DNA of 48,546 nucleotides. Origin: Cyanobacteria bacterium GSL.Bin1 (GTDB lineage Bacteria; Cyanobacteriota; Cyanobacteriia; Cyanobacteriales; Rubidibacteraceae). The notes under the pieces are model-generated. The model searched no databases, had not been told where the DNA came from, and saw nothing but the letters and a program-made list of their open reading frames with translations. Positions 18,492-30,317 of the stretch are shown here, piece after piece; the first letter of the stretch is position 1; the number at the start of each line of letters is the position of its first letter. Location: the NCBI GenBank assembly GCA_009909085.1, contig JAAANX010000114.1, forward strand, positions 1 through 48,546, written 5' to 3'. A program made the position numbers and the translations under genes.

Positions 18492-19334
18492 CTAGCCGAA
18501 GCGACCAGACACATAATCCCGTGTTACTTCTTGCTGAGCCTCCTCGAAGATCACTCTCGTCTCGTCATACTCAGCCAAATAGCCCACTTTACCGCCACTT
18601 TCTGTCGCAACAGCATTAAAAAAGGCGGTGTAATCAGCCACCCGGGTGGCTTGCTGCATATTGTGAGTGACGATAATAATCGTGTAGTTTTCCGCGAGCT
18701 CTTTCATTAACTCCTCCACCTTCAGGGTGGAAATGGGGTCTAAGGCAGAGCAGGGTTCGTCCATTAGCACCACTTCCGGATTGATGGCAATGGTGCGAGC
18801 AATACAGAGTCGCTGCTGCTGTCCACCGGATAAGGCAAATCCGTTTTCTTGCAGTTTGTCCTTGACTTCATCCCAGAGGGCAGCTCGTCTTAGAGAATTC
18901 TCCACTAATTCGTCGAGATCGCCGCTATAGTTACTGACCCTAGCACCATAAGCGATATTGTCATAGATCGATTTGGGAAAAGGATTAGGTTGCTGAAATA
19001 CCATGCCAATCCGGCGACGAACCTCAATGGGGTCGATATCTTTGGCATAGATATCTTGACCATGGTAAGTAATCTCACCGTCAAGGCGAAAACCGTTGAT
19101 TAAGTCATTCAATCGATTAAAGCAGCGCAGTACCGTGCTTTTACCACAACCCGAGGGACCGATCAAGGCGGTGATTTTGTTTCTAGGGATATCCAGGGAA
19201 ACATCACGTACTGCTTTATAGTTGCCGTAGTAAATATCACATGCTTTAGCCCGCAAAACAACGTCAGTTGCTAAGGCAAGTGTTTTAGCTGTTTCGGAGT
19301 TGTACGATGTGTTAGCTGTTTCAGGGTTAGACAT
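18492..19334 (-). CDS. pstB: Phosphate ABC transporter ATPase PstB
   Basis: 280 residues. Energises high-affinity phosphate uptake. Walker [11 protein letters not shown]-loop [15 protein letters not shown] (the NPFP is typical of PstB), ABC signature LSGGQQQRL, Walker [14 protein letters not shown] and the H-loop VTHNMQQA are all present. The C-terminus ends in the usual YVSGRFG. Last gene of the pstS-C-A-B operon; 33 bp from pstA. Confidence 0.96.
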
Positions 19335-19367: not shown

Positions 19368-20264
19368 TTAATAAGTTCTGCGTCGCGTTGCCAAGCGAGC
19401 GGCGATACTAGTGGCTAGAACCAGCAGCACTAGAATAAATGCGCCTGCCCAAGCCAACTCCTGCTGCGGCTCAAAGGGAACAATGGCAAAGTTGTAAACC
19501 AGTACTGCTAAGCTAGCAATAGGATTAAAAATACCATTGGGCCAAAACTGAGAAAATAGAGCAGTGAAAATTAGCGGTGCTGTCTCTCCAGCTGCCCGAG
19601 CAATTGCTAAGGTAACCCCAGTAATAATAGCTGGTATAGCAGCCGGGAGAACAACGGTTAAGACCGTTTGATAATTCGATGCACCGACTCCCACTGAAGC
19701 CCAACGGACTTCTTGAGGAACGATCTTCAAAGCCTCATCAGTGGTCCGAATAATCGTCGGCAGCATCAAGATCGACAACGCCACTCCCCCTGCGACAGCA
19801 GAATATCCAGTCCAGCCAGAACGAACTAAAAGTGCGTAAACAAAAACCCCAGCAATAATCGACGGAACACCGCTTAAAACGTTAGTTGCAAACCGTACAT
19901 TTTCAGCTAGTTTGCTCCCTTCGCTAAATTCTGCCAGATAAATGGCTGTCATAATGCCAAAAGGAACAGAAATAAGGGTTGCGATTAAAACTACAATCAG
20001 GGTTCCTAAAATAGCATTGGCAATTCCTCCTCCCTCTAAACCGGGCGGGGGCGGAAGCTGCGTAAACAGGTTCAAATCGAGCCGACCAATTCCACGCACG
20101 AGGACCAAAGCCAGCACCAAGACCAGCGGGATTAATGTTCCCACCATACATAAGCTGGCCAAGGTCGTCATGACGATATTAAAAATGGTTCTACTGTTTG
20201 ACGTATTTTTTTTGAGCCCCTGAATATCAAAGGTTTCAATTGGGGGACTGGGAGAGTTAGCCAC
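19368..20264 (-). CDS. pstA: Phosphate ABC transporter permease PstA
   Basis: 298 residues with about six membrane helices and a permease EAA-type loop (EALKIVPQEVRWASVGVGASNYQTV). IYLAEFSEGSKLAENVRF is typical of PstA. The C-terminus ends ATSIAARLATRRRTY. It pairs with PstC to form the channel. It lies 29 bp downstream of pstC. Confidence 0.95.
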   Translation of the reverse strand: MANSPSPPIETFDIQGLKKNTSNSRTIFNIVMTTLASLCMVGTLIPLVLVLALVLVRGIGRLDLNLFTQLPPPPGLEGGGIANAILGTLIVVLIATLISVPFGIMTAIYLAEFSEGSKLAENVRFATNVLSGVPSIIAGVFVYALLVRSGWTGYSAVAGGVALSILMLPTIIRTTDEALKIVPQEVRWASVGVGASNYQTVLTVVLPAAIPAIITGVTLAIARAAGETAPLIFTALFSQFWPNGIFNPIASLAVLVYNFAIVPFEPQQELAWAGAFILVLLVLATSIAARLATRRRTY

Positions 20265-20293: not shown

Positions 20294-21256
20294 CTACTGG
20301 TACTTGGCCTGAACTCGATTCACAATCATCTGTGCTAACACATTGACAACTAATGTCATCACGACCAGCACAAATGCTGCATACATCAAGGCAGACACCT
20401 GCATTCCTTTTGCTTCCGCGAATTGGTTTGCTAAGAGGGAAGCGATCGTATTGGCAGGAGCTAAAATTGAAATATTTAATTGATTTGAGTTCCCGATAAT
20501 CATGGTCGCTGCCATGGTTTCACCCATCGCTCGACCCAAAGCCAGCATTGTACCGCCAACAATACCGGAAAAGGCAGCTGGAATTAAGACTCGAAAAATG
20601 GTGCCCCAACGGCTAGCTCCTAGACCTAAAGAACCTTGTCGTAGTTGAGGCGGTAACGCAGCAAGCGAATCTCGAGAAATCGCAGTAATAATGGGTAAAA
20701 CCATAATCGCTAAAATCACCCCTGCTGGGAGCATCCCCGGTCCGACTGGAGAGGTTCTAAACAGAGGAATCCAGCCAAAATTACCATGTAACCAGTCCCC
20801 AATCACCTTAAGAAACGGAATTAGGACAAAAATTCCCCATAAACCATAAACGACGCTGGGAATGGCTGCCAGTAACTCCACCAAGAAAACGAGCACGGTG
20901 CGAATCTGAAGCGGAATAAAATCCTCGCTCAAAAAAATTGCAGTTCCTAGACCTAAAGGGACAGCAATGATCAGCGCAATTAGAGAACTAACTAGGGTAC
21001 CGTAAATCATTGGTAGTGCCCCATATAGCTCTCGTCCTTCAACCGGATTCCAAGCACTAGTGACCAGGAAGCCGAGCCCAAATTCTTGAACAGCAGGTAG
21101 AGCCTGAATGAAAACAACAATAGCAATAGCTGCTAAGAGTAAACCAATGGCAATGGCAAAAGCAGCAGTTGCACCCGCAAAAATCTGGTCAAATTTCTTC
21201 TCAGTGTTTGAGCGACCTCTCTCAGGAGGTAATGATGATGATGTCTTGGCAGTCAC
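20294..21256 (-). CDS. pstC: Phosphate ABC transporter permease PstC
   Basis: 320 residues, six predicted helices. Typical PstC features: NPVEGRELYGALPMIYGTLVSS, then GTAIFLSEDFIP, the EAA loop DSLAALPPQLRQGSLGLGASRWGTI, and ALGRAMGETMAATMIIGN. Heterodimer partner of PstA. It lies 86 bp downstream of pstS, within one operon. Confidence 0.95.
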   Translation of the reverse strand: MTAKTSSSLPPERGRSNTEKKFDQIFAGATAAFAIAIGLLLAAIAIVVFIQALPAVQEFGLGFLVTSAWNPVEGRELYGALPMIYGTLVSSLIALIIAVPLGLGTAIFLSEDFIPLQIRTVLVFLVELLAAIPSVVYGLWGIFVLIPFLKVIGDWLHGNFGWIPLFRTSPVGPGMLPAGVILAIMVLPIITAISRDSLAALPPQLRQGSLGLGASRWGTIFRVLIPAAFSGIVGGTMLALGRAMGETMAATMIIGNSNQLNISILAPANTIASLLANQFAEAKGMQVSALMYAAFVLVVMTLVVNVLAQMIVNRVQAKYQ

Positions 21257-21342: not shown

Positions 21343-22464
21343 TTATCGGATTGTAATGGTGTAATCAGGACTGATCTGATCGGCTGCTTCAGCGACGCGT
21401 TCTCTGACATTTTTAGGAAGAGCGATATAGCCTAATTGAGGAGAGATCTCTTGCCCTTCGTTAAGACCATACTCAATCATCACTTCCATGGCTTTCGCTT
21501 TCGAGGCATCGCTATAATCCTGATAAGCCATCATCCAAGTATAGGTTACAACTGGGTAAGATTCTTCGCCTTCAGGATCAGTGATAAAAGCCCGGAGGTT
21601 TTCCGGCAGTTCAACTGCCGCTAAGGTAGCAGATGCCGTTTCATCGTTAGCTTCAATGAAATTGCCAGAGGCATTCTCTAGGGATGCTGTTGCTAGATTG
21701 TTGTTGACTGCATACCCATACTCCACGTATCCGATCGCGCCTACCGTTTGCTGTACTTGAGCGGTTACCCCTTCATTGCCTTTTCCCCCAACAAAAGTTC
21801 CTTTGGTGGTGGGCCACTCAACACTCTTTCCTTCCCCGATTTCTTTTGTCCATTCTTCGCTAATGGCACTCAGGTGTTTGGTAAAGACTCCTGTTGTCCC
21901 GCTACCGTCAGAACGGTGAACTACCGTAATTTTCTGCTCCGGTAGTTCAACATTAGGGTTCGCTTCAGCAATTGCCGGGTCATTCCAATTGGTAATATTG
22001 CCGAGCAGGATATTGGTATAGGCATCTCGGGTGAGCTTGAGACCTGACTCGACACCGGGTACATTATAGGTGAGGACAATACTGCCAGCCGTCATTGGCA
22101 ACAAGATAACACCTCTATCGATATTACCGATTTCCTCATCTGTCATTGCAACATCACTGGCACCAAAATCGACCGTCTCAGACGTAAATTGTTCAACACC
22201 GGCACCGCTACCGACTGACTGATAGTTTACCTGTAGTTGCGGGTACTTCTTGTTCATCTCGACGGCCCAGTTTTGATAGACAGGAGCCGGAAAAGACGCT
22301 CCTGCCCCGGTCAGGGAAATATTCTCGCTGAAAACACTCTCTCCCTCCTCAGTCGGGCTAGTACTATTACCACCGCCACAAGCTGTTACACCTGCTGCTA
22401 AAATTGCGGAAAACACAACAAAACTCAATCGTTGAAAGCGAGCTTTATACATTTTTTGCTTCAT
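21343..22464 (-). CDS. pstS: Phosphate-binding lipoprotein PstS (SphX-type)
   Basis: 373 residues. A short basic N-terminus and hydrophobic core end in a lipobox (AAGVTAC, Cys 29), so the mature protein is membrane-tethered in the periplasm. The fold signatures LTGAGASFPAPVYQNW, SVGSGAGVEQFTSETVDFGASD and HRSDGSGTTGVFT bind phosphate. It captures phosphate for PstCAB. A second in-frame ATG at codon 5 is an equally possible start. The upstream region may carry a Pho box (22641-22669). Confidence 0.95.
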   Translation of the reverse strand: MKQKMYKARFQRLSFVVFSAILAAGVTACGGGNSTSPTEEGESVFSENISLTGAGASFPAPVYQNWAVEMNKKYPQLQVNYQSVGSGAGVEQFTSETVDFGASDVAMTDEEIGNIDRGVILLPMTAGSIVLTYNVPGVESGLKLTRDAYTNILLGNITNWNDPAIAEANPNVELPEQKITVVHRSDGSGTTGVFTKHLSAISEEWTKEIGEGKSVEWPTTKGTFVGGKGNEGVTAQVQQTVGAIGYVEYGYAVNNNLATASLENASGNFIEANDETASATLAAVELPENLRAFITDPEGEESYPVVTYTWMMAYQDYSDASKAKAMEVMIEYGLNEGQEISPQLGYIALPKNVRERVAEAADQISPDYTITIR

Positions 22465-22690: not shown

Positions 22691-25447
22691 TCAATATTTT
22701 CTGAGTCTCCGACGAATTAACCACTTCTTCAACTCTACGCCCCAAAAAACTAAGGTACTCAAAGCAAGGCTAAGTAATAGGTCTATCTCTCCCAAGGCTA
22801 CTGTGCCAAAAATTTGTTGTAAGAAAGGAACGTAAATGACTGCCAGTTGCAGCCCGAAAGTTAAGAGGATTGCTCCCCAAAGCGGTTGATTGGAAAGCAA
22901 ACCAATCTGGAAAAGTGAGTCTCGCTCCGAGCGAATTGCCAGGGCATTCCCCATCTGCGAGAGAGTCAAGACGGTAAATAACATGGTCTGCCATTCCTGG
23001 CGGTTGCCAAGCCAGTATCCATAGCCCGTACCGAGGCATATAATCCCCAGCAACAAACCGATCCAAATGATGTCCCGACCCATGCCTCGACCGAAGAAAT
23101 CCTCTGTCGGCGAGTAGGGGGGACGATTCATGGTCCCTCGTTCTGCCGGTTCCACACTCAAAGCCAAAGCAGGCAGACCATCTGTGGTCAAGTTAATCCA
23201 AAGAATTTGCAGCGGTAGCAGCGGTAGGGGCATTCCCAGAAAAGGAGCCAGGAGCATCACCCAAAGTTCCCCCACATTACTACTTAACAGATACTTGATA
23301 AACTTACGAATGTTGTCGTAGATGACTCGCCCCTCTTGAACAGCAGCCACAATCGTAGCGAAGTTATCATCAAGCAAAACCAGATCTGCTGCCTCTCTAG
23401 CGACATCAGTCCCGTTAATGCCCATTGCCACACCAATATCGGCTGCCTTCAAAGCGGGACCGTCGTTGATGCCATCCCCAGTCATAGCGACAATTTGCCC
23501 CTGTTTTTGGAGAGCGCGAACGATACGCAACTTTTGTTCTGGAGAAACTCTGGCATAAACAGAAACCTCTGACACTGCGCCGGTTAATTCAATCTCGCTC
23601 AAGCGATCAAGTTCTTTATCAGTCAAGATGAAGTGCTCGCGAGCCAGAGCTAACTCTCGGGCAACATGACCGGCGGTTTTGGCGCGATCGCCAGTAACCA
23701 GCACCGGACGGATGCCAGCTCTGTGACAGCCGAGAATGGCTGCTCGGGCTTCAGGTCGCATCGGATCGTCAATGCCCACCAACCCGATGAAGATTAGCTC
23801 CCTCTCCAGGTCTTCTAGAGCAGGGGTGGGAGCGGAGGGTAAGAGTCGAAAAGCAACTCCCAGCACCCTCAGACCTTTTTGGGTGAACTGACGTTTGGCT
23901 TCCCTAATCCGTTCGCGCCAGTTGCCATCGAGGGGTTTAGCCCCGCCATCTACCCAAATCCATTCGCATACAGAAAGCAAACTGCCAATCTTACCTTTGG
24001 TGAAGGCAACATATTCTGCTTCGGCCATCGTCGCTTGACTCCAATACCAGACCGCTTCTAAAGCAACGGGAAAAGAAAAGGCGGAGGGAATTTTGTGAAC
24101 AGTGGTCATTCGTTGCCGTCTGAAATTAGACGGAACTTGATTCACGCGGGGAAGGGCTTGTTCGAGTTCGGTTTGCCAAAGTCCCTGGCGAGCAGCTGCC
24201 ATTAGCAAAGCACTTTCAGTAGGATCGCCTACCGCTTGCCAAGAGCGCGGTTCATCAGGGTCGGGTTCTAGAGAAGCATCATTGCACAAGATCGCACTAG
24301 CTAACAAGAAAGATAAAGCGGGTGGCTGACTGAGTAGAAGTGGTTGTTCTCGCTCGTTTTCCAGTAGGGGAGAATAAGAGTGCAACCGGGCTGTTAAGTC
24401 TAGCCGATGTCCCGCCACGTCCAGTACGGTTACAGTCATACGGTTTTGGGTGAGGGTGCCCGTCTTGCCAGAACAAATCGTCGTCACCGAACCGAGGACT
24501 TCGACAGCCGGCAAATGGCGGACGAGAGCGCGTCTTTTGAGCATCTTCTGCGCGCCTAAGGCGAGGGCAATTGTCACGACGGCGGGTAGACCTTCGGGTA
24601 AGGCGGCTACAACTAAAGCGATCGCGGTTAGAAACATTAACCGGACGTCCTCTCCCCGCAGCAGTCCTAAAATTAAGATCGCTCCCACCAGAGCAAGGGA
24701 AGCGATTGCTAATTGACCTCCCAGTCGAGCCAGACGCTTTTGTAACGGGGTCGCTTCCGGTTCTACCTTCTCCATCAGGCTGGCAATATGACCGGATTGG
24801 GTATTCATTCCCGTTTCGGTAACGATCGCCCGAGCGCGTCCGTAGGTGACGATAGTTCCGGAGTAGACCATATTGCATCGCTTGTCAATCCCTAAATCTT
24901 TTCCCGGTAAAGCCTCTGTATCTTTATCCACTGGTTCGGCTACCCCAGTCAAAGCAGCTTCGGCAGTTCGCAAGCCCCAATTTTCCAGCAGTCGGCAGTC
25001 GGCTGGCACTAGCTCTCCGCCTTCGAGGACGATGATATCGCCGGGTACGAGTTGTCGTGCGGAAAGTTCCTGCTCGCGATCGCTGCGACGAACGCTGACG
25101 GTGGGAACAGCGAGCTGTCTGAGTTTGGCGATCGCCTTTTGCGCTCGATATTCTTGAGTGAAACCCAAACCAGTAATGAGAAGGACGATCATGCCAATGC
25201 CTAATCCATCTTTATAATTTCCTAGAAAAGCTGAAATGATGGCAGCAACGATCAGCAGCATGACCAAGACTTCGTTCAATTGCTCCCACAAGATACGCCA
25301 GGGACTCTTGAATTGCGGCTCGCGCCGTTCATTGAGACCATAATGTTTGAGGCGACGGGATGCTTCGAGATCACTCAGTCCGGACGATGCGTTGCTACCG
25401 AGCTTTTCTAGGACTTCTCGGACCTCTAATTGGTGCCAGATACTCAT
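22691..25447 (-). CDS. PacL-like P-type cation ATPase lacking the catalytic aspartate
   Basis: 918 residues, the normal length for P2-type (SERCA/PacL-like) Ca2+ ATPases, with about ten membrane helices. Kept: the M4 ion site PEGLPA, M5-M6 SSNVGELWV and NLTTDGLPALAL, nucleotide-binding FTKG and GDPTESALL, and the hinge MTGDGINDGPALK. Lost: the phosphorylation motif is CSGKTGTLTQN instead of CSDKTGT, so the Asp that carries the phosphate is Gly327 (codon 24467-24469, GGC for GAC). The actuator motif is LTGVAEPV instead of LTGESEPV (residues 167-170). The reading frame is otherwise intact. Predicted unable to form the phosphoenzyme; it may be a regulatory pseudo-ATPase or a recently killed pump. 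It follows the channel-like gene by 9 bp. Confidence 0.9.
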   Translation of the reverse strand: MSIWHQLEVREVLEKLGSNASSGLSDLEASRRLKHYGLNERREPQFKSPWRILWEQLNEVLVMLLIVAAIISAFLGNYKDGLGIGMIVLLITGLGFTQEYRAQKAIAKLRQLAVPTVSVRRSDREQELSARQLVPGDIIVLEGGELVPADCRLLENWGLRTAEAALTGVAEPVDKDTEALPGKDLGIDKRCNMVYSGTIVTYGRARAIVTETGMNTQSGHIASLMEKVEPEATPLQKRLARLGGQLAIASLALVGAILILGLLRGEDVRLMFLTAIALVVAALPEGLPAVVTIALALGAQKMLKRRALVRHLPAVEVLGSVTTICSGKTGTLTQNRMTVTVLDVAGHRLDLTARLHSYSPLLENEREQPLLLSQPPALSFLLASAILCNDASLEPDPDEPRSWQAVGDPTESALLMAAARQGLWQTELEQALPRVNQVPSNFRRQRMTTVHKIPSAFSFPVALEAVWYWSQATMAEAEYVAFTKGKIGSLLSVCEWIWVDGGAKPLDGNWRERIREAKRQFTQKGLRVLGVAFRLLPSAPTPALEDLERELIFIGLVGIDDPMRPEARAAILGCHRAGIRPVLVTGDRAKTAGHVARELALAREHFILTDKELDRLSEIELTGAVSEVSVYARVSPEQKLRIVRALQKQGQIVAMTGDGINDGPALKAADIGVAMGINGTDVAREAADLVLLDDNFATIVAAVQEGRVIYDNIRKFIKYLLSSNVGELWVMLLAPFLGMPLPLLPLQILWINLTTDGLPALALSVEPAERGTMNRPPYSPTEDFFGRGMGRDIIWIGLLLGIICLGTGYGYWLGNRQEWQTMLFTVLTLSQMGNALAIRSERDSLFQIGLLSNQPLWGAILLTFGLQLAVIYVPFLQQIFGTVALGEIDLLLSLALSTLVFWGVELKKWLIRRRLRKY

Positions 25448-25456
25448 GGTCTCTTC

Positions 25457-27499
25457 TTAATCCTTCAGCTTTTTCCCATTAATAAGATTTGCTTTTACTC
25501 TGACCCTTCTAAGTTCCCGGATCAGGCGCTGTGCTTGGTGCTGATATAATTTTATCGGTATTACTTTTGGCAGATCGCTCATCATTTCTCGAGCTTCATT
25601 TAAAGAACAACCGATGACTCGGACTAAAATATTTCCCCCTTCAAATAACGCATCAGCGGTTCTTGCTTTTTGGATTTGTACTTGCCAACTTTTTCCACTC
25701 GTATCGAGTTGACCAACTTCGACTCGTTTCAGTCCTTCCATTGTCGCAAGAACAACTAAGCGATCGCGTACCATTAACCGCACATCATCTGACGGCATAA
25801 ATTTCACCAGTTGTCCGTCTTTTTGATGTAAAATCGGCACAACATTATAACCATAAGCAATATCAGCTAAGAGTAATCCATCGAGAGTATCTTTTTCTTC
25901 AATTTCGTATTCTGTTACTAAAATGGTTTGCTGATTCAACCGCAACAACTTAATAATATTTTCTCCAAATGCTGCACCGGCAAAAGCTTCAGCAGCAACG
26001 GCATAAGCACAGAGAATAATGGCTTGAGGAAGTAACTGTGATAAGTTTTGACTCAATCGTTGTTCAAAGGTCCGAACCACTAATTGACAATCAGGATTAA
26101 TGCGATGAATGGTTAAACTAATTTCTAGGTTCAACATTTCATCGCCGGTTCCGACAATGACACTTTTTGCCCCTTCTAGATGGGCCTGGTTAAGGGATTC
26201 CTTTAAATTACCAAAAAGCATTGGCATTTCTGGCAAAATATTGGAATCAAACTCTGAATTGAGTGGAATTCCTAATAAATATTGTTTTAAGTCCAGTAAC
26301 AGCCTTGCTACCCTTCTTCCAACACGACCAATCCCAATAATTACAATCTGATCTCGTTTAGGAATTGGAGGACGACGTTGCGATAGTTCAAACTTTGAAG
26401 ATAAGAGAGCTTCTGTGACTAAAGCATATAAAACTCCGACTAAAGCCGTTCCTGCTAAAGTTAAACTGAGACTAAACAGTCGTAACCACCACTGAATTTG
26501 CTCACTCGCTTCTAGATCTCCAAATAAATCAGCATACCCGCCTAATAATAAAACCACTGTGGCATAAAAAGATGACAAAAAAGTGGTGTTAGGAAGGTAA
26601 ACCCATAAGATCAAAGTTCCCATTGCAATTAAACTGATAACAATTCCGCCGCAGATGAGAGCAACACGACGCACTGGCAACTTGAGGATTCTCTGATAAA
26701 GGTTTTGTAACTGTTTTTTGAGTACAGAAAGGGTAATTTTCTGGGGAAAAGATTTTCTTTTCTGAGACGGGTAATCCAGTAAAAAAGAATCAGAAGTTAA
26801 CCAGTCTTCGATCTGAATATAAATCACTATATCGCCTGCCTCTAGCAGTTTTTCAGGATGCCAATCATAGAATAAACCAGTCAATTGAGAAGATAAGAAA
26901 GGTTGATAGGCTAAAAGTTTTCGCTTTTGAGTATTTAATTCTTGTAACGTTCGTTGATTGCACCACTGATCACTCGGTTGAATCTGGCGTTTAATCACTC
27001 GAAAGAGTGGTTGTTCACTATCCTTTTCGGTATTCAGGTAAAAGAAGCCTTGGGTCTCTGTTCCCAACGCCGCTAAGGCAAAGGCATCAGCAGAAAGTTG
27101 AGTCGGTTCAAAGGCAATAAAATTCCCTAAATGTTCTCTTAAAAGTTGGTTGAGATTATCTTGTCCGGAACGAATGACCAAGCGGGTGTGAGAACATTGG
27201 GAACGAGCAGCAACTGCTGTTTCTGCATTAATCTGTTCATTACTGGTAACAATCAGTAAAGCCCGAGAATTTCCGATTTTTGCTGCTTCAAGGATTTCTG
27301 CATCTCGACAATCGCCAATGACTAAATCGGTTAACAAACTGGGTAAATGAGGAATTTCCCACTGTCGGGGTTCAATTTGCTTGATCGCGGTAATGCTGAC
27401 GCCAAACTTCTTTAAAGCGACCACACAATGTTGACCGAGGGAACCCAGTCCACAAACAATAAAATGATCGCAACTATTAACCTGAGGGATTTTGTCCAT
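25457..27499 (-). CDS. Double-RCK (TrkA-N) potassium-channel-like membrane protein
   Basis: 680 residues. An N-terminal TrkA-N/RCK domain (FIVCGLGSLGQH, NAD-type GxGxxG) and RCK-C-like region occupy about 1-235. Two membrane helices (about 278-302 and 340-365) bracket a pore-like loop, SFYATVVLLLGGYADLFGD. A second TrkA-N domain (IVIIGIGRVGRRVARLL) and TrkA-C region follow. The layout matches cyanobacterial ion-channel proteins with cytosolic nucleotide-binding domains. The filter reads LGGYAD rather than TVGYGD, so ion selectivity is open. It is the first gene of an operon with the P-type ATPase. Confidence 0.82.
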   Translation of the reverse strand: MDKIPQVNSCDHFIVCGLGSLGQHCVVALKKFGVSITAIKQIEPRQWEIPHLPSLLTDLVIGDCRDAEILEAAKIGNSRALLIVTSNEQINAETAVAARSQCSHTRLVIRSGQDNLNQLLREHLGNFIAFEPTQLSADAFALAALGTETQGFFYLNTEKDSEQPLFRVIKRQIQPSDQWCNQRTLQELNTQKRKLLAYQPFLSSQLTGLFYDWHPEKLLEAGDIVIYIQIEDWLTSDSFLLDYPSQKRKSFPQKITLSVLKKQLQNLYQRILKLPVRRVALICGGIVISLIAMGTLILWVYLPNTTFLSSFYATVVLLLGGYADLFGDLEASEQIQWWLRLFSLSLTLAGTALVGVLYALVTEALLSSKFELSQRRPPIPKRDQIVIIGIGRVGRRVARLLLDLKQYLLGIPLNSEFDSNILPEMPMLFGNLKESLNQAHLEGAKSVIVGTGDEMLNLEISLTIHRINPDCQLVVRTFEQRLSQNLSQLLPQAIILCAYAVAAEAFAGAAFGENIIKLLRLNQQTILVTEYEIEEKDTLDGLLLADIAYGYNVVPILHQKDGQLVKFMPSDDVRLMVRDRLVVLATMEGLKRVEVGQLDTSGKSWQVQIQKARTADALFEGGNILVRVIGCSLNEAREMMSDLPKVIPIKLYQHQAQRLIRELRRVRVKANLINGKKLKD

Positions 27500-28251: not shown

Positions 28252-28899
28252 ATGACAACAACCTTAGACCCCTCAATCGCGGAACAATATATTCAGTTAC
28301 ATCCTGTTAGTTGGGAGACATTTAATCAACTTTTAGAAGAGTTAGGAGATAACCGAAATAAACGTTTAACTTACTATCAGAAAACCTTACAAATAATGAG
28401 TCCACTAGGAAAGCATGAAAGTAATAACCGTTTTATTGATGATTTAATTCGGGCAATTACTGATGAACTAGGTCTTAATCTCAAAAAGTTTGGCTCATTA
28501 ACTTTAAAGTCTCAACCCCTTCAACAAGGAGTAGAACCAGATTCCTGCTATTACATCAAAAATGAATTCCGAGTCAGAAGCAAACAAGACATTGATTTAG
28601 AAAGTGATCCGCCTCCTGATTTAATTTTAGAAGTTGATATTACCAGTGGTTCTTTAAATAAACTGCCAATTTATGCTAATTTTAGAGTCCCTGAATTTTG
28701 GCAATATGATGGAGAGAAACTAACGGTATTTATTCTCGAAGAATCGAGTAATACCTATCGAGAAGTTGATCAGAGTAAAATATTTCCGTTCTTAGATTTA
28801 AAGCAAATTCCCCAATTAATTCAGCAAAGTTTAGAAATTGGAGAAACTGCAACCTTAAAACAATTTCGCCAGTGGGTTCAGAATCATGCAGACCAATAA
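28252..28899 (+). CDS. Uma2-family (DUF820) endonuclease-like protein
   Basis: 215 residues. PD-(D/E)XK-type fold with QGVEPDSCYYI, PPPDLILEVDIT and FRVPEFWQYDGEKL, which carry the expected acidic residues. Here the usual Lys-containing helix is NKLPIYANFRV. Uma2 proteins are very numerous in cyanobacteria; their function is unproven. It overlaps the following Uma2 gene by 14 nt, so the two are one transcript. Confidence 0.82.
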   Translation: MTTTLDPSIAEQYIQLHPVSWETFNQLLEELGDNRNKRLTYYQKTLQIMSPLGKHESNNRFIDDLIRAITDELGLNLKKFGSLTLKSQPLQQGVEPDSCYYIKNEFRVRSKQDIDLESDPPPDLILEVDITSGSLNKLPIYANFRVPEFWQYDGEKLTVFILEESSNTYREVDQSKIFPFLDLKQIPQLIQQSLEIGETATLKQFRQWVQNHADQ

Positions 28900-29569
28900 A
28901 GTTGATCAAATCCCCAGACTAGAAAACGGCGATCGCGTAACCCGTCCTGAATTTGAACAGCGGTATCATCAGATGCCCAATCTGAAAAAAGCAGAACTAA
29001 TCGAAGGAGTCGTTTACGTGCCATCTCCCCTGCGCTACAACCGACATGGCAGACCGCACAGTCAAATCATAACCTGGCTCGAAATTTATGCCGTAGCCAC
29101 TCCAGGACTAGAAACTGCAGATAATACAACTGTGCGTCTTGACCTTGATAATGAACCGCAACCCGATGCGCTGCTGCGTCTTGATGAATCTTTAGGTGGG
29201 ACTTCCCGCATCAGCGACGATGATTATCTAGAGGGCGCACCCGAATTAATTGTAGAAATTGCTGGAAGCAGTGTTTCCTATGATTTACATGATAAATTGC
29301 AGGTTTATCGTCGGCATGGGGTTCGGGAATACTTAGTTTGGTTAGTGGAAGACAAGGCATTCCGTTGGTATGTGCTGGCGGAGGGGAACTATCAACTGCA
29401 AACAATGGATTCATCAGGAATCTTAAAAAGCCCCTTTTTTTCAGGATTATGGTTGGATGTTTCTGCTCTTTTAACAGGAAATCGGCAGCAGGTGTTAACA
29501 GTGCTTCAGCAAGGGATCAATTCAGCAGACCATCAAGCATTTATCCAAACCTTAGCCAGAGACAAGTAA
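28886..29569 (+). CDS. Uma2-family protein, tandem copy 1
   Basis: 227 residues. Core NEPQPDALLRLDE, then GAPELIVEIAGSSVSYDLHD and KLQVYRRHGVREYLVW, the D-E-K arrangement of a PD-(D/E)XK nuclease. Nearly the same protein as the following gene, with a 290-bp stretch that looks identical at DNA level. The two differ mainly around residues 50-80 and at the C-terminus. Confidence 0.85.
   Translation: MQTNKVDQIPRLENGDRVTRPEFEQRYHQMPNLKKAELIEGVVYVPSPLRYNRHGRPHSQIITWLEIYAVATPGLETADNTTVRLDLDNEPQPDALLRLDESLGGTSRISDDDYLEGAPELIVEIAGSSVSYDLHDKLQVYRRHGVREYLVWLVEDKAFRWYVLAEGNYQLQTMDSSGILKSPFFSGLWLDVSALLTGNRQQVLTVLQQGINSADHQAFIQTLARDK
29141..29430 (+). repeat. 290-bp block identical to 29880-30169
   Basis: From GACCTTGATAATGAACCGC to CAGGAATCTTAAAAAG the two neighbouring Uma2 genes show no difference that I can see, whereas the sequence before and after diverges, including at silent positions. 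Length and register are the same in both copies. Confidence 0.8.
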
Positions 29570-29624
29570 ACACTTTAAGGTCAAAAATCTAAAACATTCC
29601 TCATCTATAGATTTAGATTTCAAT

Positions 29625-30317
29625 ATGCAGAATAGTAAAGTTGATCAAATCCCTAGATTAGAAAACGGCGATCGCGTAACCCGTCCTGAATTTGAACGTC
29701 GGTATCATCAGATGCCAAATCTGAAAAAAGCAGAATTAATCGAAGGAGTCGTTTACGTGCCATCTCCCTTAAGATATCAACAACATGGTCAACCCCACAG
29801 CGACATTATGGGTTGGTTATGGGTTTATAGTGCAGCGACTCTGGGAGTGTATGTCGCAGATAATACAACTGTGCGCTTAGACCTTGATAATGAACCGCAA
29901 CCCGATGCGCTGCTGCGTCTTGATGAATCTTTAGGTGGGACTTCCCGCATCAGCGACGATGATTATCTAGAGGGCGCACCCGAATTAATTGTAGAAATTG
30001 CTGGAAGCAGTGTTTCCTATGATTTACATGATAAATTGCAGGTTTATCGTCGGCATGGGGTTCGGGAATACTTAGTTTGGTTAGTGGAAGACAAGGCATT
30101 CCGTTGGTATGTGCTGGCGGAGGGGAACTATCAACTGCAAACAATGGATTCATCAGGAATCTTAAAAAGTCCCTTCTTTTCGGGATTATGGTTGGATGTT
30201 TCTGCTCTTTTAACAGGAAATCGACAACAAGTGTTAACGGTGCTTCAGCAAGGGATAAACTCGCCTGAACATCAAACTCTTGTCGAAATCTTAACTAAAG
30301 GTAAAGAGGAGGGATGA
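29625..30317 (+). CDS. Uma2-family protein, tandem copy 2
   Basis: 230 residues. Same catalytic layout as its neighbour (PDALLRLDE, ELIVEIAGSS, DKLQVYRRHG). In residues 45-80 (RYQQHGQPHSDIMGWLWVYS) it is closer to the distant copy at 41666 than to the adjacent one. That mosaic pattern, with the identical 290-bp block, points to gene conversion between tandem copies. Confidence 0.85.
   Translation: MQNSKVDQIPRLENGDRVTRPEFERRYHQMPNLKKAELIEGVVYVPSPLRYQQHGQPHSDIMGWLWVYSAATLGVYVADNTTVRLDLDNEPQPDALLRLDESLGGTSRISDDDYLEGAPELIVEIAGSSVSYDLHDKLQVYRRHGVREYLVWLVEDKAFRWYVLAEGNYQLQTMDSSGILKSPFFSGLWLDVSALLTGNRQQVLTVLQQGINSPEHQTLVEILTKGKEEG
29880..30169 (+). repeat. 290-bp block identical to 29141-29430
   Basis: Second member of the conversion-like pair inside the tandem Uma2 genes. 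Its right border is exact: the next base is T here and C in the first copy, and the copies then differ at several positions (codons for S-P-F-F-S-G). Confidence 0.8.

Follow-up and report, generated by a model that had tools for sequence, protein, structure and literature searches.

A conserved cyanobacterial clade of P-type ATPase-derived proteins without the phosphorylated aspartate, probably a family of pseudoenzymes

Can a P-type ATPase that has lost the aspartate phosphorylated in the pump cycle still serve its host and, if so, in what capacity? This question is raised by a gene of Cyanobacteria bacterium GSL.Bin1, whose genome comprises 4.8 Mb in 210 contigs; the gene lies on JAAANX010000114.1 (contig C114), all 48,546 nucleotides of which were analyzed and are referred to here as the window. 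It is a single open frame of 918 codons on the minus strand, with its ATG at 25447 and its stop codon ending at 22691. The phosphorylation-site stretch reads ICSGKTGTLTQNRM (ICSGKTGT) and includes Gly327 in place of the Asp of DKTGT, and a second stretch reads AALTGVAEPVDK (LTGVAEP), with TGVA (ACT GGG GTA GCC, 24949-24938) at the position of TGES. A preliminary description of this DNA had reported an intact 918-residue frame with Gly327 at 24467-24469, and both the frame and the coordinates were confirmed. Here we report that this glycine marks a conserved clade of cyanobacterial proteins, which are almost certainly retained for a function and very probably are not phosphoenzyme pumps.

Forty-eight active relatives served as the reference for both sites, and all of them carry Asp at position 327, bearing out the earlier statement that this residue is near-invariant, as well as Glu at position 169. 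The same description had treated TGVA as a departure from TGES; its coordinates and the unusual change of Glu169 to Val stand, but position 170 is Ala in 39 of the 48 relatives and Ser in the other 9. Judged by this alignment, Ala170 is not a loss, and only Val in place of Glu is unusual in TGVA.

The Gly327 subfamily has 18 carriers among 534 distinct genomes of the order, the window included, and these fall into four families: one carrier in f1 (the window), two in f8, one in f19 and fourteen in f33 (f denotes families, G genomes, L loci). These counts are lower bounds, because the scan patterns require the exact context CSxKTGT(L/F)T and the order was sampled; loci L013, L014 and L015 were taken as identical to L095, L096 and L097 and counted once. 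SGKTGT is read in all 18 members, with the glycine codons GGC, GGT and GGG among the 17 listed. The nearest homologues of the window protein (84, 74, 68 and 67% identity) all have Gly327; the homologues at 67-68%, in a Nostocaceae metagenome-assembled genome (MAG), a Mastigocoleus MAG and Nostoc paludosum FACHB-159, all read SGKTGT. Homologues from other phyla whose motif was read have Asp. A pattern allowing Gly, Ala or Val codons matched in 9 of 388 genomes of the order and yielded six true Gly frames, and motif scans by family matched in 14/217 genomes of f33 (which holds Nostoc paludosum), 1/27 of f19 and 2/50 of f8. Matches to CSAKTGT at L075-L077 lay outside any open frame and were discarded as chance. 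Other substitutions of the Asp, with a codon not starting with G in the same motif, occurred in none of 376 genomes of the order, and a scan of 386 genomes of the phylum (281 of them new and outside the order) added nothing, its three matches being the window, G314 and one chance match.

A phylogeny of 45 proteins united all 17 full-length Gly members in one clade (support 100/100); the frameshifted L098 was excluded from trees, column counts and the promoter scan, so that n = 17 for these. The sisters of the clade are three cyanobacterial proteins bearing both Asp and Glu (L078, L120 and L121; 52-61% identity where compared). These sisters read NLLADG instead of NLTTDG at the helix 6 ion site, and therefore their ion may differ. 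Within the clade L097, which has kept TGES, branches first, and the remaining 16 members are joined with support 100/98. Removal of the trait columns left the Gly clade at 100/100 and the other 16 members at 94/96, for which the program's verdict was neither shown nor rejected. Residue 169 is Val in seven, Ile in five, Ala in four and Glu in one of the 17 members. Because the Glu-keeping L097 branches first within an all-Gly clade, Asp was probably replaced by Gly once, at the clade root, and Glu169 lost afterwards, as is expected once no phosphoenzyme is left to hydrolyze. The two catalytic losses had been described as independent, which does not hold: the Gly is clade-wide, and Glu169 was probably lost later, to Val, Ala or Ile by lineage.

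Substitution patterns point to constraint. The whole-gene ratio of non-synonymous to synonymous substitution rates (dN/dS, NG86) was 0.08-0.17 in nine pairs. In five genome pairs the pseudoenzyme gave 0.091, 0.086, 0.170, 0.094 and 0.099 and canonical PacL 0.069, 0.108, 0.068, 0.084 and 0.073, two of the PacL ratios being rough because dS was high (1.24 and 2.22). The preliminary description had proposed that selection favored a non-pumping role or else that the loss was very recent. The former is supported by a clade-wide Gly, low dN/dS and monophyly with and without the trait columns; the latter is excluded, because the closest homologues have Gly327, the gene is under constraint and the clade is monophyletic. 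Two of the checks that it had suggested, a homologue alignment and dN/dS along the gene, gave Gly327 in all members, Val169 in 7 of 17 and thus not universally, and purifying selection that is weaker in the first 110 columns and the C-terminal tail.

Much of the rest of the ATPase has been kept. Among 211 alignment columns that are at least 97% invariant in the active relatives, 131 are retained in 17/17 members. These include Lys328, Thr329, Gly330 and Thr331, directly after the lost Asp; Lys484 in the N domain; Asp587, Lys639, Asp658, Asn661 and Asp662 in the P domain; Arg564 and Thr585; and Glu285, Asn724, Glu727, Asn752, Thr755 and Asp756 at the ion site. Near-invariant columns retained in fewer than 80% of members are rarer in the membrane part (4/56) than in the cytosolic part (32/155; p = 0.02). 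Confinement of this relaxation to the A domain was not supported (9/41 columns versus 27/170, p = 0.36). The earlier statement that ion-site and nucleotide motifs are kept holds for the ion site and TGDGIND, but the change of Lys445 to Gln had been missed, and position 440 is variable.

Profile searches place the protein within the superfamily. Pfam models PF00690, PF00122, PF13246, PF00702 and PF00689 all scored above cut-off, giving the A, P, N and membrane domains in order, and the P-type ATPase superfamily model TIGR01494 reached 286.1 against a cut-off of 62.3. Scores fell below cut-off for the PMR1-type Ca2+ ATPase (TIGR01522, 670.3 against 798.3), the SERCA-type Ca2+ ATPase (TIGR01116, 589.8 against 703.4) and the P3B Mg2+ ATPase MgtA (TIGR01524, 357 against 610.75). 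An AlphaFold model built from 16 sequences (mean predicted local distance difference test score, pLDDT, 75.6; predicted template modelling score, pTM, 0.63) matched SPCA1 in the E1-Ca-AMPPCP form best (Z 44.7, root-mean-square deviation 6.3, 822 residues aligned), followed by SERCA, LMCA1 and MgtA. Given that Ca2+ ATPases are the best matches, the fold is ordinary. Confidence was low for residues 168-170, 227-231, 306-320, 353-373 and 671-692; the predicted model only confirms the fold, and its E1-like shape is no evidence of a preferred state.

The protein thus has the domain order and fold of the superfamily and lacks its phosphorylatable Asp and TGES Glu, and it has the helix 4-5-6 ion-site residues of the P2A class while scoring below the P2A family cut-offs. 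As it fails the catalytic test of P-type ATPases and the Ca2+ pump cut-offs, we file the family as P-type ATPase-derived pseudoenzymes and not as Ca2+ pumps, a catalytic residue having been lost across a conserved, selected clade. "PacL-like", the earlier label, is loose: the host genome also encodes a canonical PacL, only 48% identical, besides further P-type ATPases, and the tree indicates that the 918-residue protein is in a clade separate from canonical PacL. Another P-type ATPase match in the host genome (G000:C93:2627-5311) has one internal TGA stop. Taking these results together, we favor, as somewhat more probable than not, an account in which a P2A (SERCA/PMR1-like) Ca2+ ATPase gave rise to a conserved pseudoenzyme that would bind MgATP and a divalent cation and regulate Mg2+/Ca2+ or phosphate transport. 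Coordinates are collected in Table 1.

Table 1 Features of the pseudoenzyme gene and its neighbors in the window
Feature	Coordinates	Strand	Basis
P-type ATPase-derived pseudoenzyme (probable), P2A-like, 918 aa	22691..25447	-	Open reading frame, Pfam/NCBIfam profiles, structure match
Gly327 (GGC) replacing phosphorylated Asp of DKTGT	24467..24469	-	Gly 18/18 members; Asp 48/48 active relatives
TGVA, residues 167-170; Val169 replaces Glu of TGES	24938..24949	-	Glu 1/17 members (L097); 48/48 active relatives
Gln445 (RRQRM) replacing otherwise invariant N-domain Lys	24113..24115	-	Gln 17/17 members; Lys 48/48 active relatives
PEGLP, residues 284-288, helix 4 ion-site motif, retained	24584..24598	-	Pro284, Glu285 17/17
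NVGE, residues 724-727, helix 5 ion-site Asn and Glu, retained	23267..23278	-	Asn724, Glu727 17/17
NLTTD, residues 752-756, helix 6 ion-site Asn/Thr/Asp, retained	23180..23194	-	Asn752, Thr755, Asp756 17/17
TGDGIND, residues 656-662, P-domain motif, retained	23462..23482	-	Asp658, Asn661, Asp662 17/17
pstS, phosphate-binding protein, 226 bp downstream of ATPase gene	21343..22464	-	TIGR00975 380.4 > 205
pstC, phosphate permease subunit	20294..21256	-	TIGR02138 310.7 > 196.45
pstA, phosphate permease subunit	19368..20264	-	TIGR00974 289.4 > 193.45
pstB, phosphate ATP-binding cassette (ABC) ATPase	18492..19334	-	TIGR00972 385.2 > 343.2
Upstream neighbor, 680 aa, two TrkA_N (RCK) stretches, 9 bp from ATPase gene	25457..27499	-	Domain profiles

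The genes around the members hint at what might be regulated. In 15 of 18 contexts at least one of three kinds of neighbor, phosphate genes, MgtA or DUF5132, is found within 5 kb: phosphate genes (PstS/PstA/PstB/PstC/PhoD) in six (the window, L074, L092, L095, L097 and L102), DUF5132 in ten (L073, L092, L093, L094 and L097-L102) and MgtA or part of it in four (L070, L071, L097 and L102). Some "MgtA" labels were not counted as MgtA: that of L098, which is the split half of the pseudoenzyme gene itself, and those of L099-L101, which mark a PacL gene. The same search found such neighbors at none of the three Asp-bearing sisters and none of 12 canonical PacL genes of carrier genomes; of the PacL controls, L157 was set aside because it adjoins a pseudoenzyme gene, and L155, without a single open PacL frame, has no row. 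Contig ends lie close on one side of some contexts (L070, 909 bp; L091, 635; L092, 2,773; L095, 2,415) and controls (L150, 3,460 bp; L134, 4,183). Profiles confirmed PstB (TIGR00972) and MgtA (TIGR01524) of L102 and the PstS-like proteins of L074 and L095 (TIGR02136), all above cut-off, and Pfam confirmed PhoD and DUF5132 on selected copies; the remaining names rest on similarity to profile-checked copies. The order ATPase, PstB, DUF5132, MgtA is common to L097 and L102, except that MgtA is inverted in L097, and the next gene upstream in L095, 603 bp away, encodes MgtE and CBS domains. These neighbors suggest a link with Mg2+ and phosphate and do not converge on a single partner.

Some details of individual neighbors may be recorded here. 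An MgtA-like gene stands directly before the pseudoenzyme gene in L071 (7729-9015), where it is shortened to 428 aa, and in L070 (26-832), where the contig starts inside it and only its end is visible. The PstB-like genes adjoining the pseudoenzyme gene in L102 (11874-12740), L097 (7096-7911) and L092 (12139-12957) have no PstS, PstC or PstA within 5 kb, L092 being cut by the contig end. In the window, the 680-aa RCK protein has RCK at both ends and, between them, hydrophobic segments and GGYADLFGD, an ion-channel-like arrangement; relatives 73-77% identical occur in two congeners.

DUF5132, a family of small proteins of unassigned function, is present in 1 to 5 copies in each of the 18 carrier genomes. 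Nine carrier genomes hold 30 copies (G000:C88:22886-23017, G000:C80:31535-31672 and 28 in eight other genomes), of which 19 lie at most 3 kb from an E1-E2 ATPase domain, where about 0.44 would be expected. For 16 of these 19 copies, an ATPase other than the pseudoenzyme is that near, and the ATPases beside DUF5132 differ in length. By association only, DUF5132, which is named in none of the open-licence PMC full texts searched, resembles a small accessory protein of cyanobacterial P-type ATPases at large and is a candidate partner of such ATPases.

How might such a protein act? From P-type ATPase biochemistry, aspartyl-phosphate could not form without the Asp and the pump cycle could not run; because the Asp is lost, the known cycle is ruled out as far as homologues teach. 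Less certainly, MgATP and a divalent cation would still be bound and would change the shape of the protein. Either this change of shape or contact with a competent P-type ATPase (MgtA, for example), for which the small protein DUF5132 might serve as a bridge, could then regulate Mg2+/Ca2+ or phosphate uptake. Ligand-controlled conformational signalling best explains the strong selection that has left the ion site intact and preserved most of the MgATP pocket, and we consider a ligand-binding regulator moderately probable. A tie specifically to Mg2+/phosphate transport is tentative, with the balance of probability somewhat against it. The fuller picture is more speculative and rather unlikely in its entirety: a family of pseudo-pumps whose cycle has turned sensor, binding MgATP and a divalent cation without phosphorylation and coupling Mg2+/Ca2+ status to phosphate uptake, sitting with DUF5132 on MgtA/PacL or Pst.

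Several observations weigh against this account. In the nucleotide site, Lys445 has become Gln; this position presumably corresponds to SERCA Lys492, near the nucleotide, and an alignment to the Listeria pump shows Lys at the equivalent position, which confirms only that an active homologue has Lys. Position 440 (presumably SERCA Phe487), Phe in 48/48 active relatives, is Tyr in eight members, Phe in seven and Ser in two, one of them the window protein. Retention is also incomplete at Arg527 (16/17), Gly586 (16/17) and Arg633 (15/17), L072 has TDD for TGD, and a helix 8 position varies (Glu in 13/17). Constraint is uneven, with dN/dS raised to 0.17 in G413/G414, at 0.18-0.48 over the first 110 alignment columns in five of six pairs and locally up to 1.05 in the C-terminal tail, and L098 is frameshifted. 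As for the neighborhood, the genes vary among lineages; L072, L091 and L096 have no phosphate gene, MgtA or DUF5132 within 5 kb; and the query set was drawn from the 18 contexts, which favors them over the controls. The RCK gene was rejected as a conserved partner, another gene, resembling ksgA, following it in the two congeners G001 and G004. Upstream of 17 members, a Pho-box scan without positive controls gave no best score above the 95th percentile reached by shuffled sequences (lowest p 0.08, in L074).

Some of these observations would suit other explanations. If the fold were kept purely as a scaffold or assembly factor, for partner contacts, ligand binding would no longer matter, which fits the changes at positions 445 and 440 and the fact that 7 of 18 contexts (L070, L071, L097 and L099-L102) have a further P-type ATPase gene, complete or partial, within 3 kb; a scaffold would leave residues of the Mg2+/phosphate pocket and the ion site free to vary, whereas many of them are conserved in 17/17, and we judge this improbable. 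The preliminary description had suggested a regulatory or scaffold role, which is a fair guess. An improbability of the same degree attaches to a ligand-gated passive ion pathway, a channel or carrier whose leak, by way of the retained ion site, would be switched on or off by the binding of ATP or an ion. The helix 4-5-6 residues, 17/17, and the better conservation of membrane than of cytosolic columns are what it predicts, but an ion sensor fits the same conservation, the alignment shows no obvious pore-opening change and a constitutive leak would harm the cell.

Catalysis of another kind, by ATP hydrolysis without aspartyl-phosphate or by phosphorylation of another residue such as Ser326, seems more improbable still. 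P-domain residues around the site are conserved in 17/17, and Asp343 and Asp350 are fixed in the clade and not in active relatives; however, these two are 16 and 23 residues away from it, ordinary members often have Ser or Thr in front of the Asp, and the dephosphorylating Glu is lost in 16/17, as lost phosphoenzyme turnover predicts. Sequencing error, recent loss or gene decay, for which one might cite the frameshift in L098 and a window codon, GGC, one base from GAC, is hardly credible and is refuted by Gly in 18/18 members, dN/dS of about 0.1 and 17/18 frames open over their full length. In L098 (8807-11913, G503), a frameshift or a sequencing error near residue 270 divides the gene into two frames.

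The favored account, a regulatory pseudoenzyme, may be compared with known systems. The clade shares with the P2A Ca2+ ATPases (PMR1/SPCA, SERCA, Listeria LMCA1 and cyanobacterial PacL) the domain set, the fold, the helix 4-5-6 ion residues and most nucleotide-site residues, and differs from them in having no phosphorylatable Asp, in the loss of the TGES Glu from 16/17 members and in Gln for Lys445. Among the 9,634 P-type sequences of a survey, DKTGT was intact in 99.77% and carried a point mutation in 22, 17 of them bacterial; the survey regarded these as single sequences that might be errors, non-functional or highly specialized (PMC3896382, section consulted). The variants in that section are isolated sequences, among which there may be a clade member, and no conserved clade is described in it. 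No report of a conserved Asp-less P-type ATPase clade was found among the matches listed in open-licence PMC full text; isolated DKTGT variants are thus already known, and what appears new, on sequence evidence, is a conserved, selected clade. The degenerate P4-ATPase domain of Plasmodium GC-beta is, according to the part of PMC6592433 consulted, eukaryotic, P4-type, fused to a cyclase and degenerate throughout, whereas the clade is changed at chosen catalytic residues. For MgtA, the part of PMC10925321 consulted reports that D373N abolishes ATP hydrolysis, that D373N and E215A strains grow significantly less without added Mg2+ and that this P-type ATPase is dimeric. MgtA genes or parts of them are near clade genes in 4/18 contexts; MgtA is catalytic and the clade very probably is not, and a hetero-oligomer with a pseudo-subunit is a proposal only, the term heterodimer being absent from PMC10925321. 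The phosphorylated Asp is the defining residue of P-type ATPases. The clade offers a natural experiment on what a P-type machine can do without phosphorylation, and the probable order of losses, with an early-branching member that lacks Asp and keeps Glu, is open to laboratory test. Annotation pipelines would likely label these genes cation pumps.

Finally, the history of the gene may include transfer between lineages. The clade occurs sparsely, its f1 and f19 members are 84% identical, and the G+C content of the ATPase gene of the window, 51.9%, exceeds the 40.0-47.4% of the RCK and pst genes. Synonymous divergence is lower for the pseudoenzyme than for PacL in G389/G529 (dS 0.66 versus 1.24) and G439/G448 (0.71 versus 2.22), and slightly above that of PacL in G505/G507 and G413/G414. 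Among the 15 matches listed in a search for plasmid copies, the highest identity was 52.8%, with one further record in the 60-80% band. The sparse presence, the 84% match, the G+C content and the lower dS suggest horizontal transfer among cyanobacteria. Elsewhere in the window, at 28886-30317 on the plus strand, two neighboring open reading frames of 227 and 230 aa have near-identical starts and probably arose by tandem duplication.

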